Made by a program: the position numbers and the translations under genes. Below, piece after piece: positions 12,250 through 36,157 of a DNA stretch of 64,000 nt (positions are counted from its first letter, which is position 1; every line of letters starts with the position of its first letter). The DNA lies in the NCBI RefSeq assembly GCF_023701485.1, contig NZ_JAMQBK010000096.1, positions 1 to 64,000 on the forward strand, in the 5' to 3' direction. Source of the DNA: Aporhodopirellula aestuarii (GTDB lineage: Bacteria > Planctomycetota > Planctomycetia > Pirellulales > Pirellulaceae). The notes under the pieces are model-generated. The model was not told where the DNA came from and made no database searches. It was given only the letters and a program-made list of their open reading frames with translations.

Positions 12250-12447
12250 TCTAATAAAGACGATCGTCTGAAAAGCTTTGCGGGTCGCTTGCTGGCAGTG
12301 GGCGAGCGAGCGACAGCAGGGGCTGGTAAACTGAGGCTTCTACTTTGAGAGCAGCTTCACTTGGCCCGAAAGATGCAGTGCGTTCTCGGCGGGGTTCTCT
12401 TTGGGGATCACCCCGTTTTTTCCAGATATCACCGAAAGGTCTTGCCT

Positions 12448-13860
12448 GTGCAGGCGAATCAGAACATTGTCGCCTACCTTGGTCCAGCAGGAACGCACAC
12501 GCATGTCGCGGCGATGGATATCTTTGGTCCGGTCGACTTTGGTGGGTTTCAGTATCGGAACGTGACGACTTTGAGCGATATTCTTGAGGCTGTCGCCAGC
12601 GGCGAAGCAGGTTGGGGCGTCGCGCCCTACTTCAATACGACCAGCGGTACTGTCGAGGCGACGTTCCCGGCGGTCGTCGATGATGTGGCACGCTCTCATT
12701 TCGCTGAGCTGGAGGTTTGTTTGAGCGTGCCGGTGCGCATCGCTCACGATCTGCTGGGGAACTGCGCTGGGGCACCCGAGCTGATCCTGTCAAAACCGGA
12801 AGCGTACGCGCAGTGCAAGAAGACGTTGCTCCGTGAATTCCCAAATCACCGGTTTGAAAAGGCTGACAGTACGGCTCAAGCGGCGGCGCGTGCTGAAAAG
12901 GAACGAGGCCCGACGGCAGCCTTGGCGTCGAAGCAACTGCTCCCGTTTCATCGTAAGCTGCAACTGACTCAAGAAGCTTGCCAGGATGTGAAGGTCAACG
13001 TCACTCGATTCATGGTCGTGCGTCGCAAGGACTCAGCCCAAACTCTTGTCGACGAAGCATCAGGTGGTCTGAAGCGGCGAACTTGGATTTTGATCAACAA
13101 CAGTGACACGCGATCCAACCTTGCCAAGTTGCTTGCCGCTGCGGAACGTTGGGGACTGGGCACTTCGGCGATCAGTGGCAAAGTCACCGATCCCGAATCG
13201 GGTGAGATGCGTTTGTTGGTGGAACTGGACAGTGGGATCAACACATGGAAGACCAAACACTTTCTTTCGGAGGTTGCCTACCTCGGCCCGATCGTGATCG
13301 GATCGCCACACGTCTTGGAACGCCCTTGCCCGATGGGCGCTCGCAAGTGGGCGGAAGCTCATGCCATCGAACATGATTCGACGGGGCGATTGGATCTTTT
13401 CAATCGACTCGACCCAATCGTTCGACAGGGGCTAGTTGGGGTGCAGCGGCAGCGACTCTTCGAGCATCCTGAAGTGAAGACGATGGAAAGCGTTTGGCAA
13501 TACCTGGGGGTCGAGCCTGATCGGATGCTGAATACACAGTGCTATGTCGACCGAGAGGGTGGTCAATTCTTGTTCTGTGTGGTCCGTGGGGATCAGCGAG
13601 TTGGTTTTGGAAAGGTTAAGGCATTGTTTGGAAAGCAATGGCAACGCGCGGAAGAGTTGGATCTACAGAACGCGGGTCAGCGGGTCGGTGCGATCTCGCC
13701 GCTGACGGTGCCAGCGGGTGCAAAGGTGGTGTTCGATCAACTCGTTCCGAAGGGCTGCTATTTGTTCCTGGGCAGTGGCGACGAAACGATCAGTGTGTCC
13801 ATCCATGCGGACGAGCCAATCTTTGCAAACGCAGATCGCTGTGACATCCATGCCCAGTAG
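12448..13860 (+). CDS. Prephenate dehydratase-like - ACT - YbaK-like fusion protein
   Basis: This encodes 470 residues from GTG 12448, chosen because AAAGG lies 8 bp upstream and the protein then starts just before the family signature YLGPAGTHTH. Residues 1-190 form a prephenate dehydratase-like domain ending in the catalytic NVTRF motif (about 183). The usual PIEN-SSG loop reads PYFNTTSG, and SHP reads SKP. Residues about 208-285 form an ACT regulatory domain. Residues about 315-470 resemble YbaK/ProX aminoacyl-tRNA deacylases. I know no standard protein with this order. It could make a phenylpyruvate-like product or a modified prephenate, and its real substrate is open. Confidence 0.75.
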   Translation: MQANQNIVAYLGPAGTHTHVAAMDIFGPVDFGGFQYRNVTTLSDILEAVASGEAGWGVAPYFNTTSGTVEATFPAVVDDVARSHFAELEVCLSVPVRIAHDLLGNCAGAPELILSKPEAYAQCKKTLLREFPNHRFEKADSTAQAAARAEKERGPTAALASKQLLPFHRKLQLTQEACQDVKVNVTRFMVVRRKDSAQTLVDEASGGLKRRTWILINNSDTRSNLAKLLAAAERWGLGTSAISGKVTDPESGEMRLLVELDSGINTWKTKHFLSEVAYLGPIVIGSPHVLERPCPMGARKWAEAHAIEHDSTGRLDLFNRLDPIVRQGLVGVQRQRLFEHPEVKTMESVWQYLGVEPDRMLNTQCYVDREGGQFLFCVVRGDQRVGFGKVKALFGKQWQRAEELDLQNAGQRVGAISPLTVPAGAKVVFDQLVPKGCYLFLGSGDETISVSIHADEPIFANADRCDIHAQ

Positions 13861-23975: not shown

Positions 23976-24212
23976 TTAACGCCGGCGCGTGCCAGCACGC
24001 TTCAATCCTTTGGCGACAAAGTCGAACGCGTCGGCCGGCTTGTAGTCTTCGAGCACGTCGAAGAAGCACGCCAGCACTCGCTTGGTCTCGGCGACGTTGA
24101 TCTTCACACCTTGGGTGTCGGCGCGGGCGGCGACTTGGTTGTAGATGTCACCGAGTGTGGATGAGTGCTGAGTAGCGGTCGACTTCTTAGTCGCTGACTT
24201 CTTTTTGGCCAT
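23976..24212 (-). CDS. Small basic hypothetical protein
   Basis: This encodes 78 residues. A Lys/Thr-rich N-terminal tail (AKKKSATKKSTATQ) is followed by a helical domain and ends in a basic KRAGTRRR tail. AAGGAA lies 10 bp before the ATG. The charge pattern suggests nucleic-acid binding, but no named family is visible. It lies 90 bp downstream of the glycosyltransferase and radical SAM operon on the same strand, so it may be its last gene. Confidence 0.6.
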   Translation of the reverse strand: MAKKKSATKKSTATQHSSTLGDIYNQVAARADTQGVKINVAETKRVLACFFDVLEDYKPADAFDFVAKGLKRAGTRRR

Positions 24213-24301: not shown

Positions 24302-24949
24302 TCACTTGCCCCTGAGTCCTTCAAACCAATTGTCGATAGGTTCGTGAAACGATTGGTGGTGAACGATTCGGATTGCTTGCCAATGATTCAGTCCGAAGCC
24401 GCGATAGTTCCACTCACACGGCAGGCAGTAAGTTGGCGCTCTCGTTTCGAGCAGGGCCTTGGTGAGAGCGACTTCGTCTTCACCGCCTCTGTAGAGTTTT
24501 CGCCATCGACTCATCGCTCGTCGGATGATTGGCGAGCGACGTAGGAACAGAACTCCAGAGTTGAATGATGGCACGCACATCAAATCGGGAGCGACTTTGT
24601 GGATTCGTCGCGATAACCCGTGAATGGCAGCGGCATGGTAACCGTAGCGATCTGTGAGCAGATCAAGCGGTTTCGCGGCGTCGCTGTGCAGGATTACCGT
24701 GTCAGTGTCGAGGTAGAGCGTTCGTGCATACGGCAGTCGAGGGATGAAAGCCGGTTTGACCGCGTAACCTGGCTGACCGGGCCACTCAACAACAACGACT
24801 TGATCGACATCAGGTACGTCGGCCAAGTCGGTCACCAACGTGATTGGCAAGTCGAGGTGTTTACGAACCGATTCAATGGATCGGACGAGGGGTTGTCGCA
24901 TCCGCTCGCCGATCGCAACGTAAAGGATTCCCTTGTTGCCTTCGCTCAT
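24302..24949 (-). CDS. Glycosyltransferase, GT8/nucleotide-sugar type
   Basis: This encodes 215 residues from ATG 24949 (MSEGNKGILYVAIGE). The frame stays open upstream, but that part is the shadow of the Pro-rich gene. It has the GT-A layout: a first strand GILYVAIG, the metal-binding DTD in TLYLDTDTV near residue 100, FNSGVLFLRR near 152, and a late CEWNYRGFG. It should transfer a sugar from a nucleotide donor to an unknown acceptor. One base separates it from the stop of the Pro/Trp-rich peptide gene, so the two are coupled. Confidence 0.78.
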   Translation of the reverse strand: MSEGNKGILYVAIGERMRQPLVRSIESVRKHLDLPITLVTDLADVPDVDQVVVVEWPGQPGYAVKPAFIPRLPYARTLYLDTDTVILHSDAAKPLDLLTDRYGYHAAAIHGLSRRIHKVAPDLMCVPSFNSGVLFLRRSPIIRRAMSRWRKLYRGGEDEVALTKALLETRAPTYCLPCEWNYRGFGLNHWQAIRIVHHQSFHEPIDNWFEGLRGK

Positions 24950-24950
24950 C

Positions 24951-25355
24951 TCAAATCCAGATGTCACCCGAGGATTTTTCTGATCCGTTCGGTTCGATGT
25001 CTGCGGGATCGGGAGTACCGGGGTGACCGGGCGGCATGTTGTCGGGCCACCAGAAACCGGGCGGCAAGTGGTAGGGGTGATCGGGCGGAAGCCGCGGCCA
25101 GACGTGCCGCGGCGGCGGGACGAGTACTTCGGTCGAGCCTTCGGGTTCAGGCGGCCAGGGCCAATCCTCGGGCCACCAGTCGGGACGCTCATCGTTCTCT
25201 GAGGCGGAGGTATCGTCATCAGTGCTTGAGCCTTCAGGCGGATCGGTGGGTGGCGGCATTGGTGGTGATGGACTGCCAGGCGGATCGAATGGCGGAACGA
25301 ATGGGTGCCATGGCGGCGGATCGTCGCCACTGAATGAACCAGGTGGATGTCTCAT
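24951..25355 (-). CDS. Pro/Trp-rich protein, possible modified-peptide precursor
   Basis: This encodes 134 residues, about 40 of them Pro and nine Trp, with no Cys. It has PP or PPP steps through most of its length (DPPPWHPFVPPFDPPG), an acidic Ser/Asp linker in the middle, then WW and WPW clusters (DWWPEDWPWPPEPEG, GFWWPDNMPPGHPG) and a final DIWI. AAGGAGTG lies 9 bp before the ATG, and the start overlaps the radical SAM stop by ATGA, so it is clearly translated. No signal peptide is seen. Its place between a radical SAM enzyme and two glycosyltransferases suggests a modification substrate; a structural or adhesive protein is the alternative. Confidence 0.72.
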   Translation of the reverse strand: MRHPPGSFSGDDPPPWHPFVPPFDPPGSPSPPMPPPTDPPEGSSTDDDTSASENDERPDWWPEDWPWPPEPEGSTEVLVPPPRHVWPRLPPDHPYHLPPGFWWPDNMPPGHPGTPDPADIEPNGSEKSSGDIWI

Positions 25356-26158
25356 TGAATCTCACTCCTTTGAGTCGGGTCGGGATGTTTGAACGGCACA
25401 CGCTTGCTGGGACAGAGTCCGCATTGAGGAATCGCTTTGGTTTGAACGAACGATCGCAAGTCTTCGTCGCTGGCGCTCGGTGGGCATGCCTTGTAGTCAC
25501 GAAACAGTTGCCATGCAGGCTCAGTCTCGATCCGCAGACGTTGCTCCATCAATGCGTGGTAGGCAAGTGCGGGGCACTTGAATAGGAAAGTGCGAAATAG
25601 TTGAGTGCACGTTTTCTGCATACAGATCTTGAACGCTGCAGCGGGATTGGAATCGAATGGCATTGGTTTGCCGTCTTCGAGTCGGTACTGTCGCATCCAG
25701 CCGCGATGCGATTGTCGGATCTTGATTTGGATGCCGGGATAGCCGGCCCGCCATTGCCACACCGTCTTCCTCACTTCGTTGAATCGAGCCAGATAGGGTT
25801 CGTGCGTTCCATGCTGGCTGACTTCGAGTCGGCAGTCGGTTTCGTCGAGCGTTGCCGGCAGATCGAGATGGCGATTGAAGAAAAATCCGTTAGTGACGAG
25901 CATCAAGTCGGAGTCGGGCCACGATTCGCGGGCCAATCGCAGGTGCTCGATCAGGTGAGGATTCAACAGCGGTTCACCCCCGAGCAACGCAAAACGCTTC
26001 GGTCGAATTCGATGCAACCAGTGCGAGTACTCACGTCGCGCGTCATCCGGCGTCGGCATTTGCCCTGCCAGATGAAAGTTGCTGTAGTGGCTGCACTGTT
26101 GACACGAAAGGTTGCAACCGTGAGCAAGGTGGAACTCAAGAGCCGGGATTTCGATCAT
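25352..26158 (-). CDS. Radical SAM protein with C-terminal Cys cluster
   Basis: This encodes 268 residues from ATG 26158, overlapping the upstream glycosyltransferase stop by ATGA; a GTG six bases earlier is possible. The canonical 4Fe-4S/SAM motif CNLSCQQC sits at about residues 16-23, followed by the SAM-binding LLGGEPLLN near 60. The C-terminal third holds further cysteines (FKICMQKTC, KCPALAY, KACPP, CGLCPS) as in SPASM or Twitch auxiliary-cluster enzymes. Such enzymes install C-C, C-S or epimer changes in peptides or modify sugars. Context makes the Pro/Trp-rich product a candidate substrate. Confidence 0.85.
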   Translation of the reverse strand: MIEIPALEFHLAHGCNLSCQQCSHYSNFHLAGQMPTPDDARREYSHWLHRIRPKRFALLGGEPLLNPHLIEHLRLARESWPDSDLMLVTNGFFFNRHLDLPATLDETDCRLEVSQHGTHEPYLARFNEVRKTVWQWRAGYPGIQIKIRQSHRGWMRQYRLEDGKPMPFDSNPAAAFKICMQKTCTQLFRTFLFKCPALAYHALMEQRLRIETEPAWQLFRDYKACPPSASDEDLRSFVQTKAIPQCGLCPSKRVPFKHPDPTQRSEIQ

Positions 26159-26820
26159 CGCCACATCACCTTTCGCAATCCGTGCTTCTTGAGACCGGCG
26201 TCGAGGAACTCAGGACGGCGGCGAACGTAGCCTGGCGGATCAACATGTTCATGTTTGAACGAATGATTCACATCGACGGCGACGTTCATGCCGGCGATCT
26301 TTGCTCGCCAGAAGAAATCCCAGTGCTCTTCGACCTTCAGCGTTTCGTCCCAGCGGATCGCTTGGAGAATGTCACGATAAGCAACAAAACAATTGCCGAC
26401 GTAGTGACACCAGCGAATCGAACGATGTTGCTTGTAGTTGCCATGAGCGATCCGCAGCACACGGTCCTCGACACGGAGCATTTTCGGACGCTCTTCGTCG
26501 TTGCTCAGGGCGGCCAATAAATCGAGATCGTGATGCTTATTCAGCGTCCCGATCAACTCAGGCAATCGCGTTTGGTTCGTGACAAGATGGTCGTCGTCCG
26601 TGAAGATGACTACCGGCGTGTCGCCGGCGTCGAGCAACCGATTGCGACCGGCGGACAATCCGATGTCGTAGGGAGTGATGATGACCTTATCGACCATTGC
26701 CCTCCCCGTACAGGACGCTCTCGGCAAGTCGTCTCTGCTTGCGCATTGATTTGACCTGCTTTTCTGCATGACTTCGTGGTTTCGTATCCCGTCAGGTTGC
26801 CACTTCGGGCATCGGGACAA
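26155..26820 (-). CDS. Glycosyltransferase-like protein, N-terminally short
   Basis: This encodes 221 residues, or about 180 if it starts at ATG 26697 (MVDKVIITPYD). It has a GT-A core: GLSAGRNRLLDAG, the metal-binding DDD in VIFTDDDHLV, then EEHWDFFWR and HEHVDPPGYVRRRPEF as in GT2/GalNAc-transferase-like proteins. The usual first strand of the Rossmann-like domain (nucleotide contact) is missing or replaced by an unusual Cys/Arg-rich leader, so it may be truncated or start unusually. It is the first gene of the coupled minus-strand operon. Confidence 0.68.
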   Translation of the reverse strand: MSRCPKWQPDGIRNHEVMQKSRSNQCASRDDLPRASCTGRAMVDKVIITPYDIGLSAGRNRLLDAGDTPVVIFTDDDHLVTNQTRLPELIGTLNKHHDLDLLAALSNDEERPKMLRVEDRVLRIAHGNYKQHRSIRWCHYVGNCFVAYRDILQAIRWDETLKVEEHWDFFWRAKIAGMNVAVDVNHSFKHEHVDPPGYVRRRPEFLDAGLKKHGLRKVMWR

Positions 26821-27136: not shown

Positions 27137-28213
27137 ATGGCGAACATTGTCCACCCGCTTTTGACACTCTTGGCGTCGCTGACGCGGCAGGAGCTGGCCC
27201 AGCAGATTCGTTACCTGAAAGCGGAGAACGAGATCCTTCGGTCAAAGTTACCTGGTCGCGTCACGCTGGACAATCGTGAAAGGAACACGCTGGTCAAACA
27301 CGGCAAAAAGCTGGGCGGGAAGATCAAGGACGTGATGACGATCGTCTCGTATTCGACGTTCCGGCGTTGGGTCCGGAAGATGGAAGATGACACGCGCGCC
27401 CCTGCGAAAAAGTCGGCCAAGCGAGGCACCGGCCGCCCAAAGATCGAGGAAGACGTTCGCGAAACCATCCTGCGGATCCGCAAGGAGACAGGGTTTGGCT
27501 ACACGAAGATTCTGCAGGAGTTGCGGCGGATGGGCGTTCACGTTTCTCGCCAAACGGTCAAGAACGCGATCGTCGACGCCGGTTTCGCACCAACGCCCGG
27601 CGATCACCCCGACACTTGGCACAAGTTTCTGAAACGCCACGCCGATACGCTGTGGCAGTGCGACTTCGCGTGCAAGAAAAAGTGGACGTTGAAAGGCCTG
27701 GTCGACGTTTACTTCATGGTCTTCATTCATCTTGGCACGCGGCAAATTTGGATTTCGCCGTGTACCGAGAACCCGACGGGCGAATGGACGACGCAGCAGG
27801 GCCGCAACTTTCAAATGCACATCGACGACAATGAGCTAAAATGCGAGATCCTAATGCGGGACCGCGATCGAAAGTACGTTGACTCGTTTGACGACGTATT
27901 CAAGACTTCAGATTGCAAAGTAAAGCTCACACCGATCCGGTCGCCCAACTTGCAGGCTCACGTTGAGCGGGTGGTCCAAACGATCAAACACGAAGTGCTC
28001 AACGCGTTCTGCATCGTGACCAACGAGCACCTCGACGGCATTCTTCACACGACGCAGAGTTGGTACAACCAGCGTCGAGGCCATTCATCCCGAGATCACC
28101 TGCCGCCGATTCGCGACGACGTGGTCACGGTACCAATCAAGTTCAGCAAAGACAGCGTCGTCTGTGATTCGGAACTGGGCGGTCACCTGCTGTCGTACCG
28201 GCACGTGGCTTGA
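27137..28213 (+). CDS. DDE integrase-core transposase
   Basis: This encodes 358 residues. A short coiled segment (LAQQIRYLKAENEILRSKL) leads into a helix-turn-helix region and an rve-type integrase core. The catalytic residues are visible: Asp in WQCDFACKKKW, Asp in MRDRDRKY and Glu in AHVERVVQTIKHE. It is close to the IS481/IS3-like integrase-core proteins common in planctomycetes. It seems intact. No flanking terminal inverted repeats or target duplication could be identified by eye, so the element boundaries are not given. Confidence 0.88.
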   Translation: MANIVHPLLTLLASLTRQELAQQIRYLKAENEILRSKLPGRVTLDNRERNTLVKHGKKLGGKIKDVMTIVSYSTFRRWVRKMEDDTRAPAKKSAKRGTGRPKIEEDVRETILRIRKETGFGYTKILQELRRMGVHVSRQTVKNAIVDAGFAPTPGDHPDTWHKFLKRHADTLWQCDFACKKKWTLKGLVDVYFMVFIHLGTRQIWISPCTENPTGEWTTQQGRNFQMHIDDNELKCEILMRDRDRKYVDSFDDVFKTSDCKVKLTPIRSPNLQAHVERVVQTIKHEVLNAFCIVTNEHLDGILHTTQSWYNQRRGHSSRDHLPPIRDDVVTVPIKFSKDSVVCDSELGGHLLSYRHVA

Positions 28214-34928: not shown

Positions 34929-35897
34929 TCATGACCAGACATCATTACCAAGTCGGTAAACCCTACGCGGCCAAATTGATTCGCGTCGCAATCCGCCCGA
35001 TCGAGAACGACCTAAGTCTGTCGGTTCATCTATTGCGGTTGGAATTCGCGGTGTACCGGATGGCCCATCATCACGAAGCCAGCCAAACGGGCGATCGTGT
35101 GGTTTTGTTGCTGCTTGGTTGACTTTGTGTTGCAGTTCCTTGTCCGACCAAGGAGGGTTGCAGATTGGGTTGTAGTGCTCAGTCAGTATGGCGAGAGAAG
35201 TGGCTGGATCGAGACCAAAGCCGTGAACCAGTGCAGTTGCCGCAGCATAAGTCTGCGAGTGACCGCCACTGCCGGCGATCGCGGGCGGCATCGCGTTGAT
35301 ATAGGCGATTGCCCGCGATTCCACGTCGTTGCCTACACGCAGCGACTGTGGCGGCAACACAGCGGTTTGTTGCGGCGGTTTCGCCGTTCCACGTTGACAG
35401 ATGACTGCATCCGCCAACGCTTTGACGCATGCGGCCAGCATGAGCGAGGGAACGGCGGACGGTTCGCCGTCGAGCGTTTCGTACGTTTCGCCGTCGGGAT
35501 GAACACTTGGACCAACGACGGTTTGCGTTCCGGTTGAACGCAATTCGACGATCATCGAGCCATCGCTCGGATCGGTATGCTTTTCAGTGGTCGCACCGAT
35601 CGCGATGTACCAGCGATGGGATCGTGGGGCTGACCTTCGTCCGGTGATCGCTGGCGTTGGTGGCAGATAACTGTCAGCCAATTCGATAGCTTCGGGACAA
35701 TCGAGATCAACGTCGACGAGCCAACCAGACGGCTCGCCAAGGATGATTCCGATATTGCCTTGATCGGGAAAGACCTCCGGGTTCAATCGAAGATTCGTCC
35801 AGTCACGTCGTGCCGGTGACTTCGATCGCGGGCGCAGCGGCACGCAGTACCAGCCACGCTGGCGATAGTTTGTGACTTGCTCCCGCACATCGGCCAT
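34929..35897 (-). CDS. Bifunctional primase-polymerase (AEP) domain protein
   Basis: This encodes 322 residues from ATG 35897, overlapping the preceding stop by one base (TGATG). Residues about 1-165 form a prim-pol domain: GWYCVPLRPRSKSPAR at the start, the catalytic VDVDLD near 60, SHRWY near 95 and a histidine-containing VVGPSVHPDGETYE. Residues about 200-285 resemble the primase C-terminal helical part. No fused helicase is present, so it is shorter than typical phage or plasmid prim-pol/D5 proteins. It would start DNA chains for a mobile element. Confidence 0.82.
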   Translation of the reverse strand: MADVREQVTNYRQRGWYCVPLRPRSKSPARRDWTNLRLNPEVFPDQGNIGIILGEPSGWLVDVDLDCPEAIELADSYLPPTPAITGRRSAPRSHRWYIAIGATTEKHTDPSDGSMIVELRSTGTQTVVGPSVHPDGETYETLDGEPSAVPSLMLAACVKALADAVICQRGTAKPPQQTAVLPPQSLRVGNDVESRAIAYINAMPPAIAGSGGHSQTYAAATALVHGFGLDPATSLAILTEHYNPICNPPWSDKELQHKVNQAATKPHDRPFGWLRDDGPSGTPRIPTAIDEPTDLGRSRSGGLRRESIWPRRVYRLGNDVWS

Positions 35898-36157
35898 CAA
35901 AAGGGTGCCTCTTCCAATGCTGCGTTTGGAATCTCGCCGATCGACTGTTTGATGATGCGGTCGTATTTCTGGCCGGCGATCGAGCGGACCGTCAGTGTTT
36001 CGGTCGCCGCGAGTAAACCTGATTCGGCGATATCAATCGCTTCTTCGGCGTTCGTTGGACAAGGATCTTGCTGCACACGAACAGGATGTTGAGTCGGCTC
36101 ATGGCTAGCTGTTCTGTTTTTCGGACCACGACAGAACAAAGTTCTCCTGCGTTTCAT
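35897..36157 (-). CDS. Small hypothetical protein coupled to the primase-polymerase
   Basis: This encodes up to 86 residues; a later GTG would give about 58 residues starting before PCPTNAEEAIDIAESG. The helical core continues LTVRSIAGQKYDRIIKQSIGE and ends NAALEEAPF. It has no known family. The stop overlaps the primase start by one base, so it is probably real. The longer start overlaps the tyrosine phosphatase gene by 53 bp, which favours the shorter version. Confidence 0.5.
   Translation of the reverse strand: MKRRRTLFCRGPKNRTASHEPTQHPVRVQQDPCPTNAEEAIDIAESGLLAATETLTVRSIAGQKYDRIIKQSIGEIPNAALEEAPF

Follow-up and report, generated by a model that had tools for sequence, protein, structure and literature searches.

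The window, a 64,000-nucleotide stretch of Aporhodopirellula aestuarii DNA (contig NZ_JAMQBK010000096.1, positions 1 to 64,000), carries on its minus strand a row of four genes, which encode a family 2 glycosyltransferase (GT2), a radical S-adenosylmethionine (SAM) enzyme, a proline- and tryptophan-rich (Pro/Trp-rich) protein and a glycosyltransferase-like protein (Table 1). The locus is almost certainly what remains of the right end of a temperate phage of planctomycetes, a phage-derived and decayed nature that an earlier note on this DNA had overlooked. From gene content, linkage, conservation, predicted fold and the decay of the window copy we infer, with slightly better than even confidence, that the intact cassette glycosylates a Ser-rich phage tail protein, that its radical SAM enzyme oxidizes a sugar and that the Pro/Trp-rich protein is the partner of this enzyme.

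The same genome contains two fuller copies on contig C83, whose radical SAM enzymes are 88% and 65% identical to that of the window, and a small fragment on contig C105. In both fuller copies the cassette genes close a phage gene block with the order tape-measure-like gene, 263-residue gene, 717- or 971-residue tail protein, 185-residue Cys-motif protein, GT25-sulfotransferase fusion, GT2, second GT2, radical SAM and Pro/Trp-rich protein. One copy has a sulfotransferase and a GT11-type transferase between the first and second GT2, and the other has a 341-residue open reading frame (ORF) without a Pfam match after the second GT2. The tape-measure assignment comes from weak PHROG matches (E 0.0011 and 0.0043) together with position, and the 717- and 971-residue proteins are called tail proteins from gene position.

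The window copy has the gene order and junctions described in the earlier note, with ATGA overlaps at 26155/26158 and 25352/25355 and a one-base gap at 24950, and the stated composition and strong ribosome site of the Pro/Trp-rich gene are both present (Table 1). The claim of two glycosyltransferases holds in part. The first is of the GT2 type, but it is a fragment that covers only profile positions 57–166 of 168 of the Pfam family Glycos_transf_2, and its DNA similarity to the paralogue in prophage B begins at 26701. The last gene has no Pfam match above cut-off and is named glycosyltransferase-like because a look-alike ORF sits within a fuller cassette (L069/L262); the spacing of the C105 alignments implies that it is absent there. 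A transposase/integrase-core ORF (27137–28213, plus strand) lies directly upstream of the truncated GT2 and may be connected with how the cassette lost its left part.

Table 1. Features of the window locus and of the Ser-rich tail proteins encoded in the fuller copies. Positions without a locus prefix refer to the window.
Feature	Position	Strand	Remarks
Glycosyltransferase-like ORF, 215 residues	24302–24949	–	relative within the L069/L262 cassette
Pro/Trp-rich protein, 134 residues	24951–25355	–	40 Pro, 9 Trp, 0 Cys
AAGGAG, ribosome-binding-site-like	25365–25370	–	nine bases 5´ of the Pro/Trp-rich ATG
Twitch-type radical SAM protein, 268 residues	25352–26158	–	
GT2-family glycosyltransferase fragment	26155–26697	–	N-terminal part missing
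Small Lys/Arg-rich ORF	23976–24212	–	several related loci also have it downstream of the Pro/Trp-rich gene
Second prophage remnant	35061–36067	–	84.5% DNA identity to prophage B
Tail protein, 717 residues, giant Ser-rich domain	L005:15527–17680		195/717 Ser, all six codons
Tail protein, 971 residues, giant Ser-rich domain	L006:14867–17782		388/971 Ser, all six codons

Similarity between the window and prophage B is restricted to 25033–26701 and to the second remnant, which matches the helicase-like C-terminal and primase-polymerase-like N-terminal parts of prophage B (both named by eye). The chances that the copy in the window is dead, with no function today, are about even; this possibility is no rival to the reading proposed for the intact family. 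Its GT2 is truncated, most prophage genes are gone, and further right-end fragments occur, such as that on C105, where positions 12412–12962 (L007) are 93% identical to window positions 24999–25493. However, the frames of the radical SAM and Pro/Trp-rich genes are intact and have diverged from prophage B mainly at silent sites, with nonsynonymous (dN) and synonymous (dS) distances of 0.07 and 0.50 for the radical SAM gene and 0.28 and 1.43 for the Pro/Trp-rich gene.

The tail protein in the fuller copies carries 182 (717-residue form) or 373 (971-residue form) of its serines past position 340, and the use of all six Ser codons argues for selection at the protein level and against a DNA repeat. 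Among distinct radical SAM loci with 7.9 kb or more of upstream sequence, 39 of 48 have such a Ser-rich ORF, and the window is one of the nine that have none. The N-terminal tail domain occurs at 83 places in 52 of 241 genomes of the same family. At 40 of the best 49 of these 83 places a radical SAM gene follows within 14 kb downstream, at a median distance of 6.2 kb, in a comparison that took in 73 of 91 radical SAM places. Five of the nine tail places without a radical SAM gene have less than 3 kb of contig downstream, while those at G233:C1:9175094 and G146:C4 (L240) are real exceptions. Four of nine more distant prophage loci, drawn from 15 of 16 retrieved regions, have a Ser-rich ORF, accompanied in L249 and L254 by a divergent radical SAM gene.

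The view that sugar transferases belong to the same cassette is borne out: in 55 of 58 loci a GT2 gene lies upstream of the radical SAM gene, at most 2.2 kb away (survey of 65 loci left after removal of eight repeats, with 62 distinct radical SAM sequences and three further repeats, the two GT2 genes being counted together). Two of the three exceptions (L065 and L066) are GT25-radical SAM fusions, and L070 is a GT2-radical SAM fusion. Carbamoyltransferase and DegT aminotransferase genes lie nearby in L110 and L080. In fuller relatives the glycosyltransferase genes adjoin structural genes, a layout of the virion-glycosylation type.

The radical SAM proteins contain the CX3CX2C motif (C15, C19 and C22) in all 68 sequences and match PF04055 above cut-off. 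The extra C-terminal Cys residues reported for the window enzyme are confirmed: six are conserved outside the core motif in 19 close sequences, and across the 68 sequences C179, C195, C246 and C249 are invariant, C184 is present in 58 and C225 in 27. Many peptide maturases, though not all, have a SPASM domain with two auxiliary clusters, a feature on which these four invariant and six locally conserved Cys residues also bear. The predicted fold consists of a radical SAM core and a short C-terminal cluster domain, as in the twitch dehydrogenases, and is by far nearest to the dehydrogenase SpeY; an earlier model from the 19 close sequences was weak (predicted local distance difference test score 68), and SpeY ranked top there too. 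SpeY (PDB codes: 7wzv, 7wzx and 7x0b) is a twitch radical SAM dehydrogenase that acts in spectinomycin biosynthesis. The window enzyme is about 16% identical to it and, unlike SpeY, is part of a phage cassette, in company with glycosyltransferases and a Ser-rich tail protein. BtrN of butirosin biosynthesis (PDB code: 4m7t) likewise combines a radical SAM core with a short C-terminal cluster domain. A section of PMC9012708 describes the auxiliary cluster of BtrN as held by four Cys residues, to which the four invariant extra Cys residues of the phage enzymes may correspond. A sugar-related action of the radical SAM enzyme is likely in our judgment.

The enzyme belongs to a wide viral family, with a relative encoded in 528 of 588 candidate stretches from viral contigs. 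Members of this family may act on sugars. Relatives occur in only 2 of 50,697 phage records. One of the two is Synechococcus phage S-SCSM2R, in which the gene, whose annotation is that of a maturase, lies amid five glycosyltransferase genes, and nearby genes are annotated as 3-amino-5-hydroxybenzoic acid synthase, inosamine amidinotransferase and 2-oxoglutarate (2OG)-Fe(II) oxygenase. Dehydrogenase, aminotransferase and amidinotransferase reactions are the classical steps to guanidino-cyclitols. Other distant relatives adjoin genes without a Pfam match or other radical SAM genes. None of 67 distant viral loci has a Pro-rich ORF on the same strand within 2.5 kb, in a screen that finds 41 of 41 known cases, and none has a Ser-rich ORF within the available flank, which indicates that both are features of the planctomycete branch as far as seen. 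Matches in the viral contigs L102, L104, L109 and L112 point to three distinct radical SAM genes in a span of about 8 kb.

The earlier note proposed searching other planctomycete genomes for the radical SAM and Pro/Trp-rich genes together, and this search reveals a conserved pair in two gene orders. In the 241 family genomes, the Pro/Trp-rich profile matches 103 places, spread over 50 genomes, and the radical SAM profile matches 91 places, spread over 48. Sixty-eight of the latter are full-length (aligned from residue 4 or before to residue 262 or beyond), and at 61 of these a Pro/Trp-rich gene lies within 600 bp on the same strand: downstream at 47, upstream at 12 and on both sides at 2. Among the other 23 radical SAM places, judged apart, a Pro-rich gene is downstream in 12. 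The start of the Pro/Trp-rich gene overlaps the radical SAM stop in many loci, and the gene is the last of the cassette in most fuller relatives. Twenty-eight of the 103 Pro/Trp-rich places have no radical SAM gene nearby, and most of the 20 examined were judged to be fragments or deletion junctions; some profile places contain internal stops. The cassette of L240 has the Pro/Trp-rich gene without a radical SAM gene, and G247:C12 (L229) has one long Pro-rich match without a stop among genes that do not look phage-derived. Beyond this set, the Pro/Trp-rich gene is present in 16 of 397 genomes sampled from the larger class, all of the same family, and in 12 viral contigs with no assigned host. 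A tblastn search with one Pro-rich member returned nothing from the 50,697 phage records, with the low-complexity filter on, which may hide matches. Three IMG/VR provirus contigs (L058, L062 and L064) end three bases past the aligned radical SAM stretch, at the expected Pro/Trp-rich start, a position that hints at omission of the gene through provirus trimming or gene calling.

The Pro/Trp-rich homologues are 120–183 residues long and conserved over much of their length. Eighteen sequences share 33 invariant columns, which include R57, W60, D64, W67, W86, H93 and Y95. For the 114 pairs of sequences, out of 153, whose proportion of synonymous differences (pS) is below 0.7, the median dN/dS is 0.21, indicating purifying selection; this value and the adjacency at 61 of 68 places rule out a chance ORF. 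The protein has no match in Pfam, NCBIfam, PHROGs or the PDB sequences at the limits used, in agreement with the earlier note, whose author knew of no RiPP class (ribosomally synthesized and post-translationally modified peptides) with such a precursor, and represents an undescribed family tied to the radical SAM enzyme. The co-evolution of distances did not separate GT2 and the Pro-rich protein as radical SAM partners. The bootstrap difference between the radical SAM/Pro-rich and radical SAM/GT2 correlations spans zero (–0.01 to 0.28 for 40 loci; –0.26 to 0.28 for 32 loci), and where an extra gene separates GT2 from the radical SAM gene (22 loci), the GT2 correlation is the higher one (0.89 versus 0.78). 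A radical SAM/Pro-rich partial correlation of 0.66 (29 loci) was not used as evidence.

In the mechanism that we propose, the fuller cassette, placed directly after the tail genes, would supply a Ser-rich tail protein, glycosyltransferases with sulfotransferase domains, a SpeY-like enzyme and the Pro/Trp-rich protein. The transferases would build O-glycans on the Ser-rich tail domain, and glycosylation of the tail is probable. The radical SAM enzyme would carry out a two-electron oxidation of a sugar or cyclitol in the glycan or its donor, converting a hydroxyl to a keto group and passing the electrons to an auxiliary iron-sulfur cluster. The Pro/Trp-rich protein would be a dedicated partner of this enzyme, most likely extended and virion-associated, and may carry, present or organize the modified sugar.

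The earlier note read the genes as a peptide-modification pathway resembling those of RiPPs. In one form of this reading, the radical SAM enzyme would act on the Pro/Trp-rich protein itself, introducing a crosslink, an epimerization or a dehydrogenation at the conserved Trp/Pro/Asp motif, and the phage would carry a RiPP-like or protein-maturation pair. The conserved pairing in both gene orders, the frequent start–stop overlap, the invariant columns with W60, W67 and W86, the purifying selection and the extra C-terminal Cys residues of the close radical SAM sequences fit. However, the predicted fold is nearest to SpeY, and no NCBIfam maturase model reaches its cut-off among the 25 of 26 matches listed for the window protein (best viperin_w_prok, 37.4 versus 180), the point on which RiPP membership failed. 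Radical SAM homologues without a Pro-rich neighbor and related loci without the peptide gene, either of which the earlier note took as refuting its reading, are both seen in part: seven of the 68 full-length places lack the Pro-rich gene, all 67 distant loci have no Pro-rich ORF nearby, and L240 shows the reverse. Several of the distant relatives sit with or are fused to glycosyltransferases, and conservation over much of the 120–183 residues fits a leader with a short core less well. No peptidase or exporter was noticed in the ORF listings or among the subset of cassette genes run against Pfam. The substrate reading is unlikely in our estimate, and direct modification of the Pro/Trp-rich protein by the enzyme is about as doubtful. 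A variant that is scarcely likelier makes the protein a virion component modified by the phage's own SpeY-like enzyme, either on the protein or on a sugar that it bears; it would then be a radical-SAM-matured phage protein of a new kind, outside the RiPP classes known to us.

Still less probable is that the cassette serves to change the glycans on the host surface in the lysogenic state, for superinfection exclusion or serotype conversion, with the Pro/Trp-rich gene as unrelated right-end cargo. Temperate-phage glycosyltransferases with such a role appear in a passage of PMC12619734, and the Pro/Trp-rich gene is last in most loci and present in many remnants, but the cassette follows the tail genes on the same strand and adjoins the Ser-rich tail protein.

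Phage virion glycosylation is, to our knowledge, known from few systems. Virion glycosylation and twitch dehydrogenases are each known separately, and no title found in the open-access literature searched joins the two or describes the planctomycete cassette, which is weak evidence of novelty. Long Ser-rich stretches are encoded beside glycosyltransferases in the serine-rich repeat adhesins; the adjacency is alike, whereas the planctomycete protein belongs to a phage tail. Mycobacteriophage virions bear glycans on tail and capsid proteins (Freeman et al., 2023, as cited in a passage of PMC12619734), a feature that the planctomycete phages would share to judge from their genes alone. In contrast to the mycobacteriophages, the planctomycete cassette has a Ser-rich tail domain, GT25-sulfotransferase fusions, a radical SAM enzyme and the Pro/Trp-rich protein. 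If the proposal is true, this combination would widen the chemistry of virions.

Short right-end fragments, consisting of the radical SAM C-terminus and the Pro/Trp-rich gene, recur in several genomes and often start near radical SAM residue 200. Because a Pro-rich or radical SAM sequence served as the query, remnants that keep these parts are over-represented. Among the junction ORFs (L188:7314–8147, L231:4747–5931, L189:6748–7776 and L182:6448–8010), fusions of a tail-chaperone-like protein or a serine recombinase with the Pro/Trp-rich segment occur, as do integrase-like or tape-measure-like starts that lead towards the C-terminus of the radical SAM protein; these ORFs resemble the products of internal prophage deletions. 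A mobile Pro-rich cassette, raised by a Pro-rich gene behind an integrase-like ORF or fused to a tail-chaperone-like ORF, was rejected because the L189 and L182 ORFs are junctions with the radical SAM C-terminus or the tape measure, for which prophage remnants with internal deletions are the simpler explanation. Two prophages without a Pro/Trp-rich gene (L259, around 12–16 kb, and L041) apparently end at tRNA arrays, as judged by eye from tRNA-like translated ORFs.
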